This document shows, in pieces, positions 9,577-64,000 of a DNA stretch of 64,000 bases (position 1 is the stretch's first letter; every line of letters starts with the position of its first letter). The notes below the pieces were generated by a model. The model was not told the origin of the DNA. It saw nothing but the letters and a program-made list of their open reading frames with translations, and made no database searches. The stretch is from contig MKTY01000009.1 in assembly GCA_001898485.1 (NCBI GenBank), positions 62,001 to 126,000 on the forward strand, written 5' to 3'. The DNA comes from Sphingobacteriales bacterium 46-32 (lineage in GTDB: Bacteria; Bacteroidota; Bacteroidia; Chitinophagales; Chitinophagaceae). The position numbers and the translations under genes are program-made.

Positions 9577-10944
9577 CTAATCAATAATAATCTTTTTGAT
9601 TTTTGGAAGCGTTGAACCACTGCAAACAATTACCAAATCGCCGTTTTTGTCAAACTGTAGACTGACCGGATAATCTATTTTTGCATTTTGCAGATTCCCG
9701 TCGACGTCGCCTTCACCAGCCGTTCCAACCAGGGTAGACACAGTGCCATTGTCATAAACTCTTATTCGGTTATTCATCGCTTCTGCCATATAGATTTTCC
9801 CATCAGGTCCTACTTCTATATCCCATATCAGGTTAAACCTGGCCTGGGCGGCGGGCCCATCTACTGCAATTGATGTATTGCCTCCTGCCAGGGTACTCAT
9901 TATCCCGGTTGTGAGATCCAGTCTTCTAAGAAAAGATGCTTTTGTATTTCCTCCACGAGGGCCATAAATATTTCCGAAATAGAGATATTTTTCGTCTTTA
10001 TCAACGGTGATATTACCATACATATTAAATGATGCTACGCTGGTGTCACCATCAATATACCAGTTACTGTTGCTGTTCATAAAATCATATTTGGTAAAAA
10101 GGCTCCATATCAGTGAGCCATTGTAGTCAAGCTTGTATATATAATTATAATTGTTAGTTGCATATATCGCAGTAGGAGTAGCTGCGACAGCAAAAATCTG
10201 CTGATTTTCAAAAGTTGCAAGTGTAGTTACAACTCCTGCAGGAGTAACACGACGAATAGCGCCGGGAACACCGGCATCTGCAACATAGATATTACCATCT
10301 CTGCCCATAGACAGATATTCAGGATATCGGAATCCAGCTGCTGCACCCGTACCGTCCACGATCCCTCGTTGATCATTACCTGCTAAAAGAGATACCATAC
10401 CTGCAGCACTTACCTTACGTAATTTTGGTGCCGGGAAGTGCCCCAGATAATAATTGTTATCGGCATCAATGGCTATTCCCGCCAACTGATCAAATTTGGC
10501 GGTGTTAATTGGGCCGTCTTCCATCCCTTTTATGCCATTTGTAACTGATACCAACTCATAACTGTATTGGTAAGCAAATTCAGGTCCTTCAGTTGCTTTC
10601 CCATTGATAGTAACTTCTACTTTCCCGGATCCGCAACGGGCTGGAATCTTTGCGGTGACTCTGTTGGCACCTTGCTCAAGAATAGTACACTCCTTTCCGT
10701 TTACTTTAACAACAATGCTGCCTGCAGAAACCGGAAAATTCTGTCCGGAAATAATAATCTCAGTGTTTTTAGGGCCTGAAAGTGAGCCGGTTGAGCTGGT
10801 GAATTCCGAAATACTCGGAACTGGCGGTTCTTTATCATCTTTTTTGCTACAGCTACTGGGCAATATTACTAATGCAGCTGCAAACAGGCACAGAAAGGAG
10901 ATAGAAAACAAACGGGTGAGTGATCTTTGGGAAGTAACTTGCAT
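9577..10944 (-). CDS. IPT/TIG and NHL-repeat surface lipoprotein
   Basis: A 455-residue predicted lipoprotein. The signal peptide ends at LPSSC with the lipid-modified cysteine near residue 32. An IPT/TIG immunoglobulin-like domain follows (about 42-128), then six-bladed NHL-like beta-propeller repeats recognisable by AGIAIDADNNYYLG, MGRDGNIYVADAG and EVGPDGKIYMAEAMNNRIRVYD. Such proteins are common in Bacteroidota and are usually outer-membrane or surface exposed; specific ligands are unknown. No operon partner is evident. Function beyond domain content is not inferable. Confidence 0.88.
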   Translation of the reverse strand: MQVTSQRSLTRLFSISFLCLFAAALVILPSSCSKKDDKEPPVPSISEFTSSTGSLSGPKNTEIIISGQNFPVSAGSIVVKVNGKECTILEQGANRVTAKIPARCGSGKVEVTINGKATEGPEFAYQYSYELVSVTNGIKGMEDGPINTAKFDQLAGIAIDADNNYYLGHFPAPKLRKVSAAGMVSLLAGNDQRGIVDGTGAAAGFRYPEYLSMGRDGNIYVADAGVPGAIRRVTPAGVVTTLATFENQQIFAVAATPTAIYATNNYNYIYKLDYNGSLIWSLFTKYDFMNSNSNWYIDGDTSVASFNMYGNITVDKDEKYLYFGNIYGPRGGNTKASFLRRLDLTTGIMSTLAGGNTSIAVDGPAAQARFNLIWDIEVGPDGKIYMAEAMNNRIRVYDNGTVSTLVGTAGEGDVDGNLQNAKIDYPVSLQFDKNGDLVIVCSGSTLPKIKKIIID

Positions 10945-24229: not shown

Positions 24230-25333
24230 CTATAGCTCCAAACCATTCTTATTTCTCCATCTCACTTCTTCTTCGGTTCGGGGAAGAAGTTTGTCTAACG
24301 TTTCTACTGCACCAGCCTGCACTTCATCTATGAATGGTCGCAGGTCTTTGTTGTATGCTTCAAAAGCTAATTCAAAATTTCCCTTCTGTTTTTCAAATGC
24401 GTCTGCCAATGCTGTTGCACCAACAATAGCCAATGAACCGCCCATTCCTGCGGCAGGCGAAGCACAATAACCAGCATCGCCTACCAATGCAACTCGTCCT
24501 TTTGTCCAGGAGGGCATTTTTATCTGACAGAATTTATCAAAGTAAAATGATTGGGAATTTATTAGTTCCTTCAATAATTCTTTGGTTCGCCAACCAACAT
24601 TTTCAAATTGTTCTAAAATTATTTGCTTATGCTGCCCTTGATTTCGGAAGTCATAAAGAATTTCTGCTTCGAGCCGGAAAGTAAAAATGATGTCGGTTTT
24701 GTGATTGTATGCATACAACGCAATACCTTTATTTGGTTCTGCAAACATCTGGTAAGTGCCTTCATCTACCAATAATTTATCTGTAATGGCGACGGAAAAA
24801 TACTGACCTAAAAAATGCGCATATTGCGTTTCGTTCCCAAACCATATTTTCCTTACCGTAGAATGTATACCGTCACAGCCAAATACCAAATAATAGGCCT
24901 GTCGTGTACCATCTTTAAACGTAGCTTCAATATTTTCGTTTGTTTCGTTTAAGGCAATAATGCTGTTGTTGAAAATAAATTCAACATCGTTTTTTATAAG
25001 GTCAAAAATCATATTGAGCAACAAATTCCGCTCTATTTCAAATTCGTTGTCAGGTAACTTTTGCAACAGAACAGAATGTTCGGTAACATCGTCAGCATTT
25101 TTAAATTCCCATTTTTCAGGTCCAATTCTATTGGCTTTTATTTGTTCATAAAGTCCCATTCTCTTAATGATGTCAACAGTTTGGTCTTTTATATCGACTG
25201 GCGTTCCTCCCATTTTGAGATGACTTCCGATTTCTATAACGGTTACTTTATAGCCCAATTTATTCAGCCAATAAGCTACTGTTAATCCTGCAAAACTTGC
25301 ACCCGACACAAGTACTTTTTTAGTTTGTTCCAT
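24230..25333 (-). CDS. FAD-dependent monooxygenase (PHBH fold)
   Basis: A 367-residue flavoprotein monooxygenase of the p-hydroxybenzoate hydroxylase class, the group that includes TetX. The FAD-binding Rossmann motif VLVSGASFAGLTVAYWL (about residue 8), the GCDGIHSTVRK motif (about 153) and the second FAD motif GDAGYCASPAAGMGGSLA (about 287) are intact. It differs clearly from TetX in these segments, so tetracycline inactivation should not be assumed; the substrate may be another aromatic drug or metabolite. An AraC regulator on the same strand lies upstream. The pair sits as an insert between backbone genes. Confidence 0.87.
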   Translation of the reverse strand: MEQTKKVLVSGASFAGLTVAYWLNKLGYKVTVIEIGSHLKMGGTPVDIKDQTVDIIKRMGLYEQIKANRIGPEKWEFKNADDVTEHSVLLQKLPDNEFEIERNLLLNMIFDLIKNDVEFIFNNSIIALNETNENIEATFKDGTRQAYYLVFGCDGIHSTVRKIWFGNETQYAHFLGQYFSVAITDKLLVDEGTYQMFAEPNKGIALYAYNHKTDIIFTFRLEAEILYDFRNQGQHKQIILEQFENVGWRTKELLKELINSQSFYFDKFCQIKMPSWTKGRVALVGDAGYCASPAAGMGGSLAIVGATALADAFEKQKGNFELAFEAYNKDLRPFIDEVQAGAVETLDKLLPRTEEEVRWRNKNGLEL

Positions 25334-53704: not shown

Positions 53705-55705
53705 TTATCCTTCTTTTACCAAATGCCGTAAATCGGGGTCGTTCTTGATACGCTCCATTTCACTTTCAACAATATGCAGAATGTCTGACTTTATCTGACG
53801 ATAATTGCTTTCAATTTCCTGCTTCATTTTATCTTCTCCGTGTTCATTAACAAAGGATAGGATTTTCGGTATCTTCTGATATACTTTAGTTTCTGCGGCA
53901 ACTTTTTCATTGTCCACCACAATTTCAGCGTGGAAAATCTTTTGCTCGATGCGTTCGTCAAAGTTATCCGATACAGAACCCACGAACATACCTTGTGTTA
54001 GTGTTGAAATTTTGGAAGCCGGAATAAGGCTGTCTAACTGTGTTGAAATAGAAGTAGATTTATCGTTGCGGTTAATCGTCATACTTTGACGTTTCTGCAA
54101 TACTTTACCGAAGCGTTCCGAAAGGCTTTTTGCCGTTTCGCCAACTACCTGACCACTGAATATATTACCTACGGTATTCTGAATTACCTTGCTCTCTTTG
54201 TCGCCGTAATCCCTTGTTAATTGCGAAAAATCCTGAAAGCCTAAACAAACCGCTACCTTATTACTTCTCGCAGTAGCGATAAGATTATCCAGCCCTCTGA
54301 AGTAAATTGTAGGCAGCTCATCTATGATAACCGAACTCTTTAACTGACCTTTTTTATTGATGAGTTTTACAATTCTTGAATTGTATAAACCCAAAGCTGC
54401 GGAGTAGATATTTTGACGGTCGGGATTATTACCCACGCACAAAATTTTTGGTTCTTCGGGATTGTTGATGTCGAGCGTAAAATCATCCCCAGTCATAACC
54501 CAATACAACTGTGGGCTAATCATTCTTGACAAAGGAATTTTAGCCGATGCAATCTGTCCCTGTAATTGGTCTTGCGCTCCTGATTGCCACGCATCCATAA
54601 ACGGAGAAAGATAGTTTTCCAAATCGGGGTATGATGTCAGAATGGTAAATACGTCCGAATACTTTTTGTTCAGCAACTCAATGGCGTGTGGAAATGTACA
54701 ATAATTGCCGTCCTCATAGATTTTCAGATACCAAATAATTGCCGCCAATAGGATAATTGGGCTTTCCACGAAAAAATCCCCTTGCTTCTGTATCCAGCTT
54801 CGATTGAGGTTCAGCATTATGGTATATGCTGCTTCGTAAGCATCAGAAATGTCCGTCATAAAGTCGGGATTGAGTGGATTGCAACGGTGGCTCTTGCGGG
54901 GATCATCGAAATTTATCACGTAAAATTTCGGCTGAACTTTGTACTTATCCCGATGCTTCAATAAATGATTGTAAGCAATTGTAGAAAGGTCGTCAAATTT
55001 AAAATCGTAAATGTACATACTAAAGCCTTTCTCAATCTGCTGTTTGATGTAATTGTTTACGATGGCATACGATTTTCCTGAACCCGGCGTACCCAACACA
55101 ATCGAGGCTCGAAAAGGATTGACTATGTTAATCCAGCCGTTGTTCCATTTGCCTTTGTAATAAAACTTTGTGGGAAGATTGACAGAATATTTGTTTTCCA
55201 TCAATTTAGTTTCCTGCTGAAAACTTTCATTCTCGTTATTGAAAACATCGTCCATTAAATTAGTACGGAGCAATCGGCTCATCCATACGCCCGCCATCAG
55301 CAAGGCGATATAACCTAATGAGATAGTAAGCATATACAGGAATGTGCCTGTTTCCGGGGATAGCTTTAGCAACGGTGTGTTCAGGAAGAACAGCACAAAG
55401 CCAACGCCCAACGCCACGTAAATTTTAGTCCACGTTATCTTCTCATTCTTTACGCCCTTTGTCCCTAAGCAACTCAACGCCAATAAAACCAAAGCGAATG
55501 CTTTGGTGTAAAGGGTGTGTGAAAACAAGCCCGCCGTCCGGTCGAAATTGCCTAATATCTTGTTGATTACTTCCAACGTCCAACCACGTTCTAAAAAGAA
55601 ACCGTAGCAGAACCAATAAAAGTGCATCAGCACCAAAAGAATACTGACTGCCCGCATAAAAGCCATTATCTTGGCAAGCCCTCTTAAATCGTCTTCTCCC
55701 TGCAT
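53705..55705 (-). CDS. mobC: Conjugative coupling protein (VirD4/TraG-like, MobC)
   Basis: A 666-residue type IV coupling protein. Several hydrophobic helices occupy the first 145 residues, then comes the ATPase domain with Walker A GTPGSGKS (205-212) and Walker B in SSVIIDELPTIYFRG (about 465). It recruits the relaxase-DNA complex to the transfer channel. Its gene follows the relaxase gene mobB on the same strand, as in Bacteroides mobABC modules. The sequence GAACATTAAAA about 20 bases before its start belongs to the shared ICE leader motif. Confidence 0.94.
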   Translation of the reverse strand: MQGEDDLRGLAKIMAFMRAVSILLVLMHFYWFCYGFFLERGWTLEVINKILGNFDRTAGLFSHTLYTKAFALVLLALSCLGTKGVKNEKITWTKIYVALGVGFVLFFLNTPLLKLSPETGTFLYMLTISLGYIALLMAGVWMSRLLRTNLMDDVFNNENESFQQETKLMENKYSVNLPTKFYYKGKWNNGWINIVNPFRASIVLGTPGSGKSYAIVNNYIKQQIEKGFSMYIYDFKFDDLSTIAYNHLLKHRDKYKVQPKFYVINFDDPRKSHRCNPLNPDFMTDISDAYEAAYTIMLNLNRSWIQKQGDFFVESPIILLAAIIWYLKIYEDGNYCTFPHAIELLNKKYSDVFTILTSYPDLENYLSPFMDAWQSGAQDQLQGQIASAKIPLSRMISPQLYWVMTGDDFTLDINNPEEPKILCVGNNPDRQNIYSAALGLYNSRIVKLINKKGQLKSSVIIDELPTIYFRGLDNLIATARSNKVAVCLGFQDFSQLTRDYGDKESKVIQNTVGNIFSGQVVGETAKSLSERFGKVLQKRQSMTINRNDKSTSISTQLDSLIPASKISTLTQGMFVGSVSDNFDERIEQKIFHAEIVVDNEKVAAETKVYQKIPKILSFVNEHGEDKMKQEIESNYRQIKSDILHIVESEMERIKNDPDLRHLVKEG

Positions 55706-55806
55706 TATTTTGAGTTTTAATGTTCGGGCGTGAATTTAAAGGCTCTATGCGGTGGCTCTAAGAATGTGGCAGCCAGTGGCGTTATGTGGCAGTGTTTGGC
55801 TAAATA

Positions 55807-57093
55807 TTATTTCTGACCTCGTTGGCGTTTGCGCTTTTTCTTCATCTTATTGACAAAGTCCTGTTCTTCGTAATCTTCGCCCTGGGCTTCGGGCAATAAG
55901 CCGCCCAGTGCTTCAATCAAACCGTCTTCGTGTTTGTCCGTAGTTAAGAAGTCGAACAAATGGTGTGGTTCTTCCGCAGGAAGATCCGCATCATTTGATG
56001 TGGATAGTTTGGGTTGTAAAGCGGCAGGTTCTTTAATATCGGGTTTGATGTTATTGTTCCAATAATCATTAAAGGTGTTGGCAGAAAGTTCTTTTGCCAA
56101 ACGTGAACCGTTCCAAACCGCTTTGGAATTGTGGTCAATAAATGTGATACCATAAATACGCCCTGTATCATTCCGGCGTACTACTACGTTAATGCCTTGT
56201 TCCGCTAACTGCTTTTTAAAAGCCTGTTCATCGCTCGTAGCTTTCAGGGCAATGGTAACGGCAGATTTTAGGGTCTGTTTGGTTGGGCTGTCTTTCAAAG
56301 CGGTTTTGCATTTCGCAAAATGCGATTCCAAAGCCGGAAGCCCCGCACTCTTTCCGAACAGCGAAGCCTTGAACGGATGCCCAGCTCTTTCGCCTTTTTC
56401 ATTCAATGGAATGTACAATAAACCCTGCTGCATCTTTCCCTGTAATTCGCCCTCGATTTTCTCGGAGGTAATATTGAACAGGCAAAGCAAGGCATTGTAT
56501 TCGCCCAAAGTTTGGTACTGGTAGTAATTCGGCAGGTGGCGAACGACCGAAGCGATTTGGCTCTTCACATCGCCTGCCCGATAATCGACCGGACGGAAAA
56601 CCTTATCAATTTGGTTGCGCTCCTTATCTGTTGCGGGTATCAACCCGTGTTTTCTTTCCAGTTCACGGCATACATTCATAGACCGCATTTTCTCGAATTT
56701 GTCCGAAATCTTTTTGCCCTGCTCGTCCACACAAACCGATACAATATGTATATGGCTGCGGTCTATATCGGTATGTTTGAACATCACAAAAGGTTGTTCG
56801 CCGTAACCCATTTCCCGCATATACTGTTCTGCCATTTCCCTAAACTTATCATCGCTTACCTTGTCGTTCGGGTCAGGATTAAGCGAAATATGCAACGTAT
56901 GTTTCTCGGTATTGCGGTTCGCTATCAGGTAAGGGGCAAAAGACTGGGCTAATTGTGCCACGGAATAATGACCGCTTGCGGTTTCAATCATCTTATTGGC
57001 AAACAAAATCTGCCCGTTTTCATTCTCTACTTTAAGCTGATTGTATGCCAATGCTCCGTATAAATTTCCGCTTCTACCGATTTTTGCTATCAT
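55807..57093 (-). CDS. mobB: Relaxase / mobilisation nuclease MobB
   Basis: A 428-residue MOB_P-type relaxase. The histidine motif that coordinates the metal is visible as KHTDIDRSHIHIVSV (about residues 106-120), and tyrosines near the N-terminus (LYGALAYNQ) are candidates for nicking. It cuts and covalently holds one strand at oriT. It starts two bases after the mobA stop, implying co-transcription and a joint relaxosome. Confidence 0.94.
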   Translation of the reverse strand: MIAKIGRSGNLYGALAYNQLKVENENGQILFANKMIETASGHYSVAQLAQSFAPYLIANRNTEKHTLHISLNPDPNDKVSDDKFREMAEQYMREMGYGEQPFVMFKHTDIDRSHIHIVSVCVDEQGKKISDKFEKMRSMNVCRELERKHGLIPATDKERNQIDKVFRPVDYRAGDVKSQIASVVRHLPNYYQYQTLGEYNALLCLFNITSEKIEGELQGKMQQGLLYIPLNEKGERAGHPFKASLFGKSAGLPALESHFAKCKTALKDSPTKQTLKSAVTIALKATSDEQAFKKQLAEQGINVVVRRNDTGRIYGITFIDHNSKAVWNGSRLAKELSANTFNDYWNNNIKPDIKEPAALQPKLSTSNDADLPAEEPHHLFDFLTTDKHEDGLIEALGGLLPEAQGEDYEEQDFVNKMKKKRKRQRGQK

Positions 57094-57095
57094 CT

Positions 57096-57536
57096 CTAAG
57101 GCTGTTTTTTCAGGTATTTTGTTTCAAATTCCTCGGTTAGTTGGATGATTTTTTGGCATAGCATCGCCATTTCAGCCGTTTGTTTTTCCAATTTGTAGAG
57201 GAACGCTGCCGCTTTTTTCTCGGAAAAATGTTTGTACAGCAGCTTTACAACCTGATTATAATTCACGCCTACGGAACGGAACTGGCTATGAAACGAGGTC
57301 AACCGCATATAAAAATCAACTGTTCCTTTGTCAATCTTAACCGATTTCATTTCCTTACTGAACAGCAGGGAAATGATAAACTTGGCTTTATTAGGCATTC
57401 CCGATGCTTCAAAAAGCGATAAGAGTTTGGCGTTTTCTTCGTCCGTAAGACGGAAAACGTGGCGGTGGATGCTTGGGTCGGTTTTTGGTGTCCGTCCGCC
57501 CTTATTCTGTTTGCTGTTTCTGTTCACGTTCATCAC
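57096..57536 (-). CDS. mobA: Relaxosome accessory protein MobA
   Basis: A 146-residue basic protein with a ribbon-helix-helix-like N-terminal part (HRHVFRLTDEENAKLLSLFEASG) and a helical C-terminal domain of the MobC/BfmA relaxosome type (NYNQVVKLLYKHFSEKKAA). It presumably binds oriT and recruits the relaxase encoded immediately downstream. It is the first gene of the mob operon, and the region upstream holds the candidate oriT. Confidence 0.87.
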   Translation of the reverse strand: MMNVNRNSKQNKGGRTPKTDPSIHRHVFRLTDEENAKLLSLFEASGMPNKAKFIISLLFSKEMKSVKIDKGTVDFYMRLTSFHSQFRSVGVNYNQVVKLLYKHFSEKKAAAFLYKLEKQTAEMAMLCQKIIQLTEEFETKYLKKQP

Positions 57537-59510: not shown

Positions 59511-60152
59511 TTGATTATGGAAATAGTAATTGTGATTTGCCTGCTCATCGTCATTGTCCTGCTTTTGCAGGATAAGATTGTCATTTATAAAAGGCCGGGA
59601 CAAAAGCCGAGGCCGGAGAAAGTTAACCCGAACCTGCCCGATATTATGGGGCAGCCCAAGCCAGTAAGAAGCCTTTCAGTGCCAAACATTGCCAATGAAC
59701 GCCAAATAATGGAACCAGAGATAAACCCCGATAATTTAGATATAGAATACGACGAGAATGAAGCCGTCGGCATTCAAATTCCGCAGGAAGAGCTGGACGA
59801 AGTTTTTAGTAATATGCCTGATTTGGACGAAGAGGAAGAAGAATGGAACAGGTACGGAATATCCGGTGACGATAACGGTTTTGCCCAAGGGGTTACCTAC
59901 GACGAACTGAGCTCCGTAGGGACATTGCTCCAAAAAGAAAATTTGGAACAATCCCAAAAGGAAACAGCGATAGCGATAGTTCAAAAAATACAAGGAACCG
60001 AATTATTCAGCCTATTGGAAAATTCTATGGAGGGTGCCTCCCGAAAAATTGCCGAGCTTTTGGATAGCACACTTTCGGCTGTAACGGACAACAGTTCTTC
60101 CACTTTGCGGAAAAGTAATTTGAGTGATTTTGACATTGGGGAGTTTGTGTAA
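59511..60152 (+). CDS. traD: Conjugal transfer protein TraD-like
   Basis: A 213-residue membrane protein with one N-terminal helix (IVIVICLLIVIVLLL) and an acidic soluble region ending in a predicted helical segment (SLLENSMEGASRKIAELLDSTLSAV). Position after traA and traB and the general layout match TraD of Bacteroidota conjugative elements. ATG at 59517 is an equally good start. The stop codon lies inside the loop of the following terminator hairpin. Confidence 0.78.
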   Translation: MIMEIVIVICLLIVIVLLLQDKIVIYKRPGQKPRPEKVNPNLPDIMGQPKPVRSLSVPNIANERQIMEPEINPDNLDIEYDENEAVGIQIPQEELDEVFSNMPDLDEEEEEWNRYGISGDDNGFAQGVTYDELSSVGTLLQKENLEQSQKETAIAIVQKIQGTELFSLLENSMEGASRKIAELLDSTLSAVTDNSSSTLRKSNLSDFDIGEFV

Positions 60153-60167: not shown

Positions 60168-60250
60168 CTATTTGAAAATGATTTACATTTTTAATGTTTC
60201 CTTAAACATCCTCATTTTCACGCTATTAAACATGATATAAAGAAAAAAAA

Positions 60251-60320
60251 GGAAACTAAAGTCTGTTTTTGGAAATTTATATCAAAAAATGGAAATTAAA
60301 ATCTTGTTTTGGAAATTTAT
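60251..60320 (+). repeat. Four direct repeats spaced exactly 20 bases (iterons)
   Basis: GGAAACTAAA at 60251, GGAAATTTAT at 60271, GGAAATTAAA at 60291 and GGAAATTTAT at 60311 have identical 20-base spacing, close to two helical turns, so all face the same side of the DNA. Inter-repeat spacers are T-rich before the second and fourth. The last copy lies between the -33 and -7 promoter elements of the ATPase gene. Such an array is typical of a cooperative operator. Confidence 0.85.
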
Positions 60321-60331
60321 TACTATATTTG
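60304..60331 (+). promoter_or_regulatory. Promoter of the ietAS-like operon
   Basis: A -33 TTG at 60304-60306 and a perfect -7 box TATATTTG at 60324-60331, 17 bases apart. Transcription would begin near 60336, giving a leader of about 24 bases before the ATG at 60360. The elements flank the fourth repeat of the array. Confidence 0.75.
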
Positions 60332-60359
60332 CATTTATAAATTAAGAAACAATAAGCAA

Positions 60360-61547
60360 ATGCTCAAATATTTCAGTATAGTACAAGCTTTAAGCAGGTC
60401 CGCATTGGCAATGCCGAATGAAGCTGTCACTCATCAAATTAGAAGACTAAAAGAGAGCTTGGAAAAAGATGGATTTACTAAAGAGGCTAAGTCATTGGAG
60501 GCTTTACTGACTGCCTCTGAATCTTCGCTTGAGATGTCCCCAAGTAAAATCCAAAGATCTTTCGTGGTTTTAAAAGGTGAAGAGATAACTCCTAAGACAT
60601 CAATTCCTGTAGATAAGGAGACATCAACACCATTAGCAGAGATTTTTTTTCCTGATGATCTACCAGAGAAAGCTCCAATGTTTGATGATAACATCCAGCT
60701 TGCTATTCACTCAATTGTAAATGAATGGAGCAAATTCGATCAACTTTTAGAAATTAATGCTACTCCAGCTAGCTCCTGCTTAATTTACGGTGCGCCAGGA
60801 ACTGGTAAGACACATTTAGCAAAATGGATTGCAAAACAAATTGGATTACCTGTAGTACTGGCAAGGTTGGAAGGGCTTATGTCTTCGTATCTAGGAACTA
60901 CATCTCGAAATATTGGCAATCTATTCACTTTTGCTAATAGGTATAAATGCATCCTACTTCTCGATGAGTTTGATGCAATTGCTAAACTCCGTAACGATCC
61001 GCAGGAGGTTGGTGAAGTAAAAAGAGTGGTGAATACCTTGTTGCAAAGTTTGGATTCACGTCATGAAAAAGGTTTTACCATTGGTGTAACTAACCATGAA
61101 AGTCTTCTTGATCCTGCTATTTGGAGAAGGTTTGATATACAGGTTGAAATTCCCAAACCTTCCCCTGAGGTAATGATTCAATTACTTAAGACTTTTATTA
61201 CGCCTTTAGAATTTAACGAAAGTGAAATTAAGTTTTTAGCATGGTGCTTAGATGGCTCATCAGGTGCTGATGCAGAAATGCTTTCTAAATGGCTAAAAAG
61301 AGCTTTTGTTTTAGAAAGGGAAAGCAATATAGTGGAAGTAATGAAGCAATTTGCTGTACTTAACTCTGGAAGGGTGGACGCAAAAAAGAGAAATGTTATG
61401 GTTCACAGTGATGAAGATTTTATCAATATGTTATTAAACGATAAGGTTTACTCTTTTAAACAGAAAGATCTAGCATCATTGTTCGGAATGACTCCGTCAA
61501 CTTTGAGTAAACAGTTATCAAAATTTAAAGATTCTGAAAAAATATAA
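60360..61547 (+). CDS. ietA: AAA ATPase, IetA-like
   Basis: A 395-residue AAA+ ATPase: Walker A GAPGTGKT (144-151), Walker B ILLLDEFD (198-205), sensor 1 TN (244-245) and arginine pair RR (256-257). The N-terminal 130 residues are helical and unassigned. The last 30 residues (KQKDLASLFGMTPSTLSKQL) look like a helix-turn-helix. The start at 60360 fits the promoter; an in-frame upstream start at 60309 lies before the transcription start. It is followed after three bases by a subtilase gene. An ATPase/subtilase pair of this order is the ietAS system, known from Agrobacterium plasmid exclusion and from anti-phage screens. Confidence 0.85.
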   Translation: MLKYFSIVQALSRSALAMPNEAVTHQIRRLKESLEKDGFTKEAKSLEALLTASESSLEMSPSKIQRSFVVLKGEEITPKTSIPVDKETSTPLAEIFFPDDLPEKAPMFDDNIQLAIHSIVNEWSKFDQLLEINATPASSCLIYGAPGTGKTHLAKWIAKQIGLPVVLARLEGLMSSYLGTTSRNIGNLFTFANRYKCILLLDEFDAIAKLRNDPQEVGEVKRVVNTLLQSLDSRHEKGFTIGVTNHESLLDPAIWRRFDIQVEIPKPSPEVMIQLLKTFITPLEFNESEIKFLAWCLDGSSGADAEMLSKWLKRAFVLERESNIVEVMKQFAVLNSGRVDAKKRNVMVHSDEDFINMLLNDKVYSFKQKDLASLFGMTPSTLSKQLSKFKDSEKI

Positions 61548-61550
61548 GTT

Positions 61551-64000
61551 ATGGCAAATAGTCCTGTTCAAATAGTATTAAATAGCGATGCTTTTATTGA
61601 AGCATTAGAAAATAATGGTGGCGGTGGTTCTAAAGACTTTTTTGCTGGAAATGATAATGAATTCATTGAGCATAGGGATAACATTCAAAATCAGCTTAGT
61701 GAGATAAAGAGTATGCAGTTGGTAAATAGTTTCGCCAAGGTTTCTTATGCGAAAGTTACATTAAAGCAAACTGCATTAGCAAAAAGCCATCGTCCAACTT
61801 CCCAAGTTTTCAAAAGGGATGTTGCTCCTATAATTGGAGCTGGGGATTTGGGAGAATTATTTGTCGAACTGACTCCTGAAAGTATTGATAAAATAAATAC
61901 TAAAGTTGGACAGGCCGAGCCTGAAACAAGATATAAAGAAAAGAATGGAAAAAATGAACCTAATCCTTCAAGATTAAGAAGTGAAGTTGGTGCAATTGAA
62001 GAAATTAGTCCATACACCGCAAGTGACAAAAGGAATTTTTCTGTCAAAGAAGCCGTAAAATGGCTATCTAATCCTCAAACTGGCGGTTCGTATATGGTAG
62101 AATTATTTGAAGCTCCTCCAGCGAGACAAGATTGGGATCTACTAAGCAAATACAAATTCGATTTGTTTGATAGCTTTTTTGGCGGGTTAACCGTTTTGGG
62201 CACAGGCTTATTTGTATCAAGAATTACTACCGGTCAGGGTTCATCTGTTGTGTTTGGTATAAAATTAGAGAAAACAGATTCGTCTCCGGTAATACAACTT
62301 TACTCATCGTCAACAGCAGGCAAATCAGGAGAGAAAAAATCTATCGACCTCGATTTGGAGAGACATAACCAATTGTTAGAATATTTAGGAAATCATCCAT
62401 TGGTAAAAAAAGTTACTCTTCCTCCCATCATTACACAAAGCTCAACTGTCAAATCTCAGGTCAAAGGTAAAAACTTTACTGTTCTTGCTCCTGATCACAA
62501 AGGCTCATATCCGAAAATATGCGTTGTAGACGGTGGTGTTTCGGACGTTTATGGTGACTGGATAGAAGATCGTTGGGGATTAATTAGCAGCACGGATAAA
62601 GACGAAAATCACGGTACTTTTATAGCTGGATTAGCAATCTTTGGTCAACAATTAAACGGAAAGGCTATTTGCAGGGAGGTTGATGGTTGTAAAATTGTAG
62701 ATCTTGATATATTGCCTCGTGTTGACAGATATAGTTCCTACTATTCAAAACCTTTAGAATTTTTTAATGAACTTGAAACTGCTGTTCAGGAATTAAAAGC
62801 TAGAACTGGAGTTCGAATATTTAATTTCAGCTTGAATATAGAAGAACATGCATCAACTACAGGTTATAGCATTCCTGCACAAATTTTGGACAAGATTGCG
62901 GAAGAAAATGATGTCGTTTTTGTTATTTCGGCGGGTAATACCCATCCGAGAGATATTAGAAAAGAATGGCCTTCGGATCATTTTGATGCATTAAAAATAT
63001 TAGCTTCTTCGAGAAATGATGCTATTAAAAAACCAGCTGAAAGCTGTCGTAATATCAGTGTTTCAGCTTTAAATCCTCCACATCTTGACGGTGTTGTTCC
63101 TTACGCTCTAAGTAATTACAGCTGTCGAGGACCTGGACTACGAGTAGGCCTTAAACCTGATTTTGCTCATATCGGTGGATCCGGGACTAGTCATCCAATT
63201 TTAGGACATGGTCTTCTATCTCTAGACCCTACGAGTAACATTGTCGATGGTTGCGGAACTAGCTATGCTGCTCCTAATGTAGCAAAGACTTTAGCAAGTC
63301 TTGATCATTCAATTGAAGGTATTGTTTCAAGAGAAACACTAATCGCTCTGGGAATCCATCATGCTGTATTACCAGAGTCCCTTAACGACAAAAATTTGAG
63401 AAACGTCTCCAAACACTTGGTTGGATTTGGTATGCCGGACGGTTCTGAAGATATTTTGAACGGAAGTTCATCTGCAATAACATTAGTATTTGCAAACCGA
63501 GCTATAAGTGGACATAAGATGAGTTTTAAATTTACGTGGCCTTCAAGTTTAGTAAGGGATGGTAAATGCTTTGGGCATGCAAAACTTACCATTGTAAGTA
63601 CGCCAAGGTTTGATTACAGATTTGGTTCTGAGTTTGTCAGAATAAATATCGACGCAGCTTTAAGGCAACTGCAAAATAATGGTAACTATAAAGGAAGGTT
63701 GAATGCAATTTACACGCCTGAAGATGGTGATGGAAGTTTATACGAGAAAGATCAGATTGAACATTCTTTCAAATGGAGTCCAGTGAAAGTTTATGAAAAA
63801 ACTTTCCCCCGAGGAGTTGGACCATCGACAGAATGGAAACTAGATGTAGAGTACTTATCAAGAGATGGTGTAACTCTACCAGCTGCAGGTGTACCGTTTA
63901 CAGCAATACTAACAATTTCTGATCCTGATAGTGAGAAACCAGTATTTAATGATATGCGACAAATGCTACAGTCGCTTGGAGTCCAAGCCGTTGATATCAA
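61551..64000 (+). CDS. ietS: Subtilisin-like serine protease, IetS-like (partial, continues past window)
   Basis: At least 816 residues, open to the window end. The S8 catalytic triad is complete: aspartate 327 in VVDGGVSD, histidine 354 in NHGTFIAG, serine 571 in GCGTSYAAPN, with oxyanion asparagine 463 in SAGNTH. About 320 residues precede the protease domain and contain a GGGG stretch near residue 22 but no signal peptide, so it should be cytoplasmic. The segment after the triad (about 600-816) is beta-rich. It starts three bases after the ATPase stop, so the two are coupled. In the ietAS pair the ATPase and protease are both required; the protease target is unknown. Confidence 0.87.
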   Translation, partial: MANSPVQIVLNSDAFIEALENNGGGGSKDFFAGNDNEFIEHRDNIQNQLSEIKSMQLVNSFAKVSYAKVTLKQTALAKSHRPTSQVFKRDVAPIIGAGDLGELFVELTPESIDKINTKVGQAEPETRYKEKNGKNEPNPSRLRSEVGAIEEISPYTASDKRNFSVKEAVKWLSNPQTGGSYMVELFEAPPARQDWDLLSKYKFDLFDSFFGGLTVLGTGLFVSRITTGQGSSVVFGIKLEKTDSSPVIQLYSSSTAGKSGEKKSIDLDLERHNQLLEYLGNHPLVKKVTLPPIITQSSTVKSQVKGKNFTVLAPDHKGSYPKICVVDGGVSDVYGDWIEDRWGLISSTDKDENHGTFIAGLAIFGQQLNGKAICREVDGCKIVDLDILPRVDRYSSYYSKPLEFFNELETAVQELKARTGVRIFNFSLNIEEHASTTGYSIPAQILDKIAEENDVVFVISAGNTHPRDIRKEWPSDHFDALKILASSRNDAIKKPAESCRNISVSALNPPHLDGVVPYALSNYSCRGPGLRVGLKPDFAHIGGSGTSHPILGHGLLSLDPTSNIVDGCGTSYAAPNVAKTLASLDHSIEGIVSRETLIALGIHHAVLPESLNDKNLRNVSKHLVGFGMPDGSEDILNGSSSAITLVFANRAISGHKMSFKFTWPSSLVRDGKCFGHAKLTIVSTPRFDYRFGSEFVRINIDAALRQLQNNGNYKGRLNAIYTPEDGDGSLYEKDQIEHSFKWSPVKVYEKTFPRGVGPSTEWKLDVEYLSRDGVTLPAAGVPFTAILTISDPDSEKPVFNDMRQMLQSLGVQAVDI

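Follow-up and report, generated by a model that had tools for sequence, protein, structure and literature searches.

The DNA analysed here is a 64,000-nucleotide stretch (the window) from Sphingobacteriales bacterium 46-32, bases 62001-126000 of a 131202-base contig in a genome of 5.49 Mb. At its right end lie two genes, ietA and ietS, which encode an AAA+ ATPase and a large subtilase and stand in the transfer operon of an integrative and conjugative element (ICE) of the CTnDOT type. A further 5.2 kb of the same contig beyond the window were also read, as locus L005 (window position = L005 position + 56000); other loci and genomes are cited by their L and G numbers where needed.

The ietAS pair

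The two genes are on the same strand with a 3-bp gap between them, and both match the curated PADLOC models of IetA and IetS over their full length (Table 1). The ATPase contains an AAA domain (PF00004, 9e-29) with the motifs GAPGTGKT, LLLDEFDA and WRRFD and a weak C-terminal helix-turn-helix (HTH) that stays under the Pfam cut-off, and its best matches among solved structures are Cdc48/VCP-type unfoldases. The protease carries a subtilase domain (PF00082, 5e-19) whose catalytic triad, D327, H354 and S571, is invariant across six homologues (the others being 37-80% identical to the IetS of the window); no signal sequence is apparent and the protein looks cytoplasmic, while a sequence search returned no solved homologue of IetS. 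These results bear out a preliminary description of this DNA, in which the genes were taken for an ietAS pair whose subtilase is cytoplasmic and has an intact triad, and they dispose of the alternative that the best matches would be to unrelated AAA/subtilase pairs. The NCBIfam equivalog cut-offs for IteA and IteS are missed (273.6 of 510 bits and 333.8 of 900 bits, respectively), and the pair is therefore assigned to a divergent IetAS branch, as a relative rather than an equivalog. A chance resemblance is excluded, since curated models are matched over their full length and since eight other Bacteroidota genomes carry the pair at the same place in the element, with an IetS that is 97-100% identical (Pedobacter puniceum, P. 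chinensis, Pedobacter sp. Hv1, Pelobium, Flavobacterium akiainvivens, F. erciyesense, Chryseobacterium ureilyticum and Paenimyroides).

Upstream of the ietA start, an ATG, the promoter region contains [TA]GGAAA[CT]T boxes at -110, -90, -70 and -50 relative to that codon (three to four boxes, about 20 bp apart), and a TTG start listed at 60309 falls within this promoter. Box series with the same spacing of about 20 bp are found 5' of ietA in L049, L051 and L091, diverged ietA loci included. Together with the weak C-terminal HTH, the series suggests that IetA may regulate its own expression.

The element is recognised by mobABC followed by traA to traG in order, with tra genes on both sides of ietAS, as the preliminary description had placed the pair. 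The DNA downstream holds traE, traF and traG, 8.1 kb after traD, so that the element does not end after the protease. No integrase or attachment (att) sites were found on the contig, which ends inside traG.

Table 1. Features of the ICE transfer region and its cargo (window positions unless marked L005)
Feature	Position	Strand	Remarks
mobC, mobB, mobA	53705..57536	-	NCBIfam Bacteroid_MobC 1128 bits, MobB, MobA, all over cut-off
traA	starts 58293	+	ParA-like; Pfam ParA
traB	starts 59065	+	Pfam DUF3408
third tra gene ("traD")	59511-60152	+	no Pfam match; name positional; synteny in relatives
ietA promoter region	60250..60332	+	iterated [TA]GGAAA[CT]T boxes and TATATTTG box
ietA	60360-61547	+	AAA+ ATPase, 395 aa; PADLOC PDLC02195 1.9e-162, 2-392 of 395 profile positions
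ietS	61551-64031 (last 31 bases outside the window)	+	subtilase, 826 aa; PADLOC PDLC02199 E=0, 1-816 of 826
DUF2188 gene	L005 8048-8293	+	
structured RNA	L005 8316-8476 (window frame 64316-64476)	probably -	
multi-ubiquitin (mUbl) gene	L005 8611-9312	+	
E1-like gene	L005 9287-10444	+	DUF6791-ThiF
DUF6527 gene	L005 about 10431-10841	+	
DUF3800 gene	L005 10923-12065	-	
traE	L005 12248-12553	+	PF13572
traF	L005 12565-12897	+	PF13571
traG	L005 from 12894	+	TIGR03783; cut by contig end

The traD-traE slot

The gap between traD and traE is a recurrent cargo and defence hotspot of CTnDOT-family ICEs. It measures 8098 bp here. Of the 149 family genomes surveyed, 10 have the third tra gene, and wherever traE can be read the gap spans 3-10 kb and has varied contents; an empty slot, with only 282 bp from traD to traE, is found in G212. 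Systems known to PADLOC that occupy the slot are SIR2 with HerA (L022, L023 alike), Avs3a/b (L024), Gabija (L027) and a second type of Gabija (L032, L149 alike), a class II prokaryotic Argonaute with its partner (L033), MzaC/MzaE with a cytosine methylase (L031) and a PD-Lambda-3_B gene (L029, L030 alike). Metal and TonB genes, named by eye, fill it in L150 and in L025, whose contig stops before traE, and no recognised defence system was found in the slot of L028. The idea of the preliminary description that a defence cassette could sit at this tra position thus agrees with what relatives carry there.

Variation begins right after the traD stop codon, and on the right a stretch of about 110-145 bp ahead of traE is conserved among elements, everything leftward of it being variable. 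The slot sequence examined showed no recombinase, no inverted repeats and no duplication of a target site, and the contents may be exchanged by homologous recombination between the flanking tra genes. Defence hotspots of ICEs and other mobile elements likewise consist of a fixed slot in which defence modules are swapped between conserved genes; unlike these, the present slot lies within the transfer operon of Bacteroidota ICEs, and no description of such a location was found in the literature searched.

The slot of L029 (2165-6423) and L030 holds a set of five genes, of which one of the four scanned (PD-Lambda-3_B) is known to PADLOC; this set may be an undescribed defence system. Elsewhere among the core genes of the ICE, at 24230-25333 of the window, there is a gene for an FAD-dependent monooxygenase-like protein, possibly TetX-like as judged by eye, with topoisomerase-like and N6-methylase-like genes near it.

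Genes and structured RNA downstream of ietS

The unit of interest exceeds ietAS, since it also comprises a cassette of mUbl, E1-like and DUF6527 genes and a structured RNA, all outside the window. The three genes are contiguous, with an E1 of the ThiF type, and this trio of genes is present at all E1 sites of the phylum survey. The same order of multi-ubiquitin-like, E2/E1-type and metal-binding-like DUF6527 genes characterises the multi-ubiquitin cassettes (Iyer 2006; Synechocystis pSYSX, PMC4963859) and Bub (PDB Citrobacter BubCD); the cassette of L005 differs from them in having ietAS as its partner, not an ImmA/IrrE-HTH or sigma pair, and in its structured RNA, which Rfam does not know. 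The N-terminal DUF6791 domain of the E1-like protein, a candidate for an E2-like fold, is a separate gene in L147 and L148, and its AlphaFold model lies mostly below 50 in predicted local distance difference test (pLDDT) score. Models built from 9-10 sequences reached a mean pLDDT of 55 for the E1-like protein and 61 for DUF6527, too poor for fold searches.

DUF2188 was considered as an obligatory third gene of ietAS and rejected, being missing in L051, L100 and the alphaproteobacteria. A small DUF3223-like gene (under the Pfam cut-off) follows ietS in 12 alphaproteobacterial loci (e.g., L075:11360-11848) and is a possible third gene of the alphaproteobacterial ietAS branch.

Between ietS/DUF2188 and mUbl the cassettes of this clade share a conserved block of about 140 nt, which folds into a five-helix structure with 93% of cells paired. 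Ten pairs are changed on both sides versus 3.4 by shuffling, and covariation is 0.267 versus 0.159 in shuffled alignments (0 of 500 shuffles), with slid versions at or below 0.133; these counts come from nine sequences, some of them closely related, and the structure was chosen on the same sequences. A small minus-strand open reading frame (L005 8290-8514) was rejected as the cause of conservation, as its frames differ among loci and the RNA pairs covary. As to the strand, about equal numbers of cells favour either one (count from the pair table), but the copies inspected have a hairpin and then a T-run on the minus strand, suggesting that a transcript of this strand ends at the site; a dissimilar hairpin and T-run of the same kind occupy the same spot in L135.

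The RNA tracks the ubiquitin-like (Ubl) module and is found almost only beside Ubl cassettes. It also lies upstream of mUbl on Runella and Spirosoma plasmids with no ietAS annotated nearby (nhmmer and covariance model; these copies were included in the covariance model, so that the nhmmer match alone is independent). A weak match (32.5 bits, 6e-4) occurs in L049, which is outside the model, between ietS and a Bil-like gene set. Among the ietAS loci lacking a Ubl module, those searched (L055, L056 and L057) did not yield the RNA, nor did the other mUbl loci searched; the model, run on 395 genomes of the phylum, and the exact pattern, run on 395 genomes of the class, matched here only. Two matches to Rfam 15 are both far under the gathering scores, and IMG/VR phage contigs gave no match to the exact pattern. 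The RNA may be a regulatory small RNA or a component of the cassette. On Runella pRUNSL03 (L152:165-5012) the neighbours of the mUbl cassette with the RNA include an 801-aa protein that matches Piwi weakly and a nuclease of the PD-(D/E)XK type; in the Spirosoma counterpart (L153) a nuclease is accompanied by a protein of 829 aa.

Distribution and linkage with ubiquitin-like modules

When 84,980 species genomes were scanned, an IetS alignment serving as query, 73 loci were obtained, with IetS identities of 64-100% for most Bacteroidota loci and about 50% for the nearest proteobacterial relatives. The Ubl cassette is also present in 7 of the 8 genomes with ietAS in the same slot; the ICE copy of F. 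erciyesense has none, and its ietS is split by transposase-like genes (by eye; L059:10456-11816). In alphaproteobacteria a TraG-like protein is encoded near ietAS in seven loci, followed in some by genes resembling those of a type IV secretion system (T4SS; named by eye), and on a Dongshaea plasmid ietAS comes after virB5 and a T4SS gene; bacteria outside Bacteroidota probably carry ietAS in transfer regions as well. Coupling-protein-like or T4SS-like genes stand near ietAS in the alphaproteobacterial loci L061, L068, L074, L078, L096, L098, L101 and L115.

A Ubl module adjoins ietAS in 8 of the 10 Bacteroidota settings with enough sequence (ICE copies counted once), the exceptions being L055 and L056. 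With the hidden Markov models built for this analysis it was found at 0 of the 54 non-Bacteroidota ietAS loci of the same scan, and the linkage of ietAS, Ubl cassette and structured RNA is lineage-specific. The two could be independent stability or defence modules that merely travel together, Ubl cassettes favouring toxin-antitoxin loci, usually ImmA/IrrE and here ietAS. This explanation, which comes close to an even chance, agrees with the report that 70% of PF14452 genes adjoin COG2856/DUF955 toxin-antitoxin loci (PMC4963859) and with the survey, where most mUbl cassettes likewise pair with ImmA/IrrE-type or sigma-like genes instead of ietAS; about 320 bp with a terminator-like element also separate ietAS from the cassette. 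It accounts less readily for the 8 adjacent settings out of 10 when the background of co-presence, with E1 in 14 of 395 phylum genomes, is about 3.5%, for the recurrence of the pairing with different Ubl families, and for an intergenic RNA seen only where the Ubl module is present.

Alternatively, IetAS, the mUbl/E1/DUF6527 cassette and the RNA could form one coupled system, in which proteins tagged or sensed by the Ubl would be handled by the AAA+ ATPase and subtilase with a logic resembling that of ubiquitin and the proteasome. We regard such coupling as plausible, at somewhat under even odds. The order ietA-ietS-(DUF2188)-mUbl-E1-DUF6527 is kept outside tra in Arsenicibacter, a Bacteroidales metagenome-assembled genome (MAG), Chryseobacterium vrystaatense, Chitinophaga and an Algoriphagus MAG, the first two copies being flanked by ordinary genes. 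Gene and RNA order is maintained in unrelated contexts (L048, L050, L051, L091 and L100), with no other recognised defence genes alongside in L048 and L050. In G653 (L135) a different ietAS branch precedes the cassette, again within traD-traE. The 80%-identical IetAS of L049 (G063, a Flavipsychrobacter MAG) is followed by a different set of Ubl, DUF7665 (E2-like by position), JAB-like and E1-like genes, and a Cupriavidus plasmid shows the same kind of pairing, with a related Ubl/E2-like/JAB/E1-like set placed before ietAS. These sets have the order of BilABCD-type operons, of which L049 is a candidate member; the cassette of L005, unlike them, has no JAB and no separate E2. The similarity of IetA to Cdc48/VCP-type unfoldases would also fit coupling, but it is common to many AAA proteins.

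Distances within the clade cut both ways. Those of IetS and E1 are uncorrelated (r 0.11), against 0.93 for mUbl and E1, which, with the absence of the module outside Bacteroidota and at L055 and L056 and the usual partners of mUbl cassettes, speaks against a coupled system. Divergence of the partners is discordant (IetS about 80% versus E1 44-79%; in L135, IetS 26% versus E1 58%), so that ietAS and the cassette came together, or were paired afresh, on more than one occasion, and on the E1 tree the ietAS label changes at least twice, three times by parsimony. Our interpretation is that the partners have been re-paired repeatedly and are not a single frozen unit. This pattern favours, without proof, a functional tie between ietAS and the Ubl module, to which the published tendency of multi-ubiquitin genes to adjoin toxin-antitoxin loci (PMC4963859) is the main alternative.

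Possible function of the cargo block

The IetAS system has been recovered in anti-phage screens and is named in PADLOC and NCBIfam. The toxin IetS/SgiT and the antitoxin IetA/SgiA raise the stability and incompatibility of plasmids and islands, and toxin-antitoxin behaviour is experimental in SGI1 (PMC5006074); ietAS of pTiC58 is described as a toxin-antitoxin pair in the title of Yamamoto 2009 as cited in PMC4231840. The term "plasmid-exclusion locus" used in the preliminary description does not correspond to this published role of stability and incompatibility (PMC5006074; Yamamoto 2009 as cited in PMC4231840). IetAS of Ti plasmids and SgiAT of SGI1 share with the present pair the order of an AAA+ ATPase gene and a subtilase gene, the location on a mobile element and the PADLOC families; they differ in that the present pair is a divergent branch in an ICE tra operon and is followed by DUF2188, the RNA and the Ubl cassette.

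The reading preferred here, with a probability of roughly 0.7, is that the intact IetAS makes up the left-hand portion of 8 kb of defence or stability cargo in the recurrent traD-traE slot of a CTnDOT-family ICE, where it would have a protective function like that of a toxin-antitoxin system. As homologous pairs act as toxin and antitoxin, an abortive or stability function is to be expected here by analogy. IetS would be a cytoplasmic protease kept latent, its toxicity restrained by the AAA+ partner IetA; a disturbance, be it an attacking phage, an incompatible element or the loss of the ICE, would release IetS, and the ensuing arrest or death of the cell would protect the lineage of the element. 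The Ubl cassette would most likely act with or beside IetAS through protein tagging. Cargo inside tra would travel with the conjugation genes, and the conserved leader of traE may allow it to be swapped without disturbing traE. Two points weigh against this interpretation: the branch is divergent by the NCBIfam cut-offs, and, because the published toxin-antitoxin members are distant from it (Rhizobium rhizogenes plasmid matches reach about 23% over 58% of IetS), the function is transferred by family.

Entry exclusion of rival ICEs at the cell surface is very improbable. It would suit the location in the transfer region, and in Dongshaea and some ICE-like regions of alphaproteobacteria ietAS likewise has T4SS or coupling-protein genes close by, but both proteins look cytoplasmic, the published role is in stability and incompatibility after establishment, and most of what else occupies the slot is directed against phages.

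Beyond the protective role favoured for IetAS, a composite function of ietAS, the Ubl cassette and the RNA can be envisaged. An immune system of Bacteroidota mobile elements in which AAA+ ATPase and subtilase act jointly with the Ubl conjugation cassette and with a structured RNA dedicated to the system is unlikely as things stand. To our knowledge, it would be the first bacterial system to unite a ubiquitin-like tag, an ATP-dependent protease and an RNA component. The locus allows one to test directly whether an ATP-dependent protease is dedicated to the products of ubiquitin-like tagging in bacteria, an old question on the origin of the ubiquitin-proteasome system, and what role is played by a covarying RNA that hardly occurs away from Ubl cassettes. 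For the Bacteroidota ICEs as a group, the traD-traE interval is a place to seek unknown defence genes, the contents of L029/L030 and L028 being mostly unassigned.

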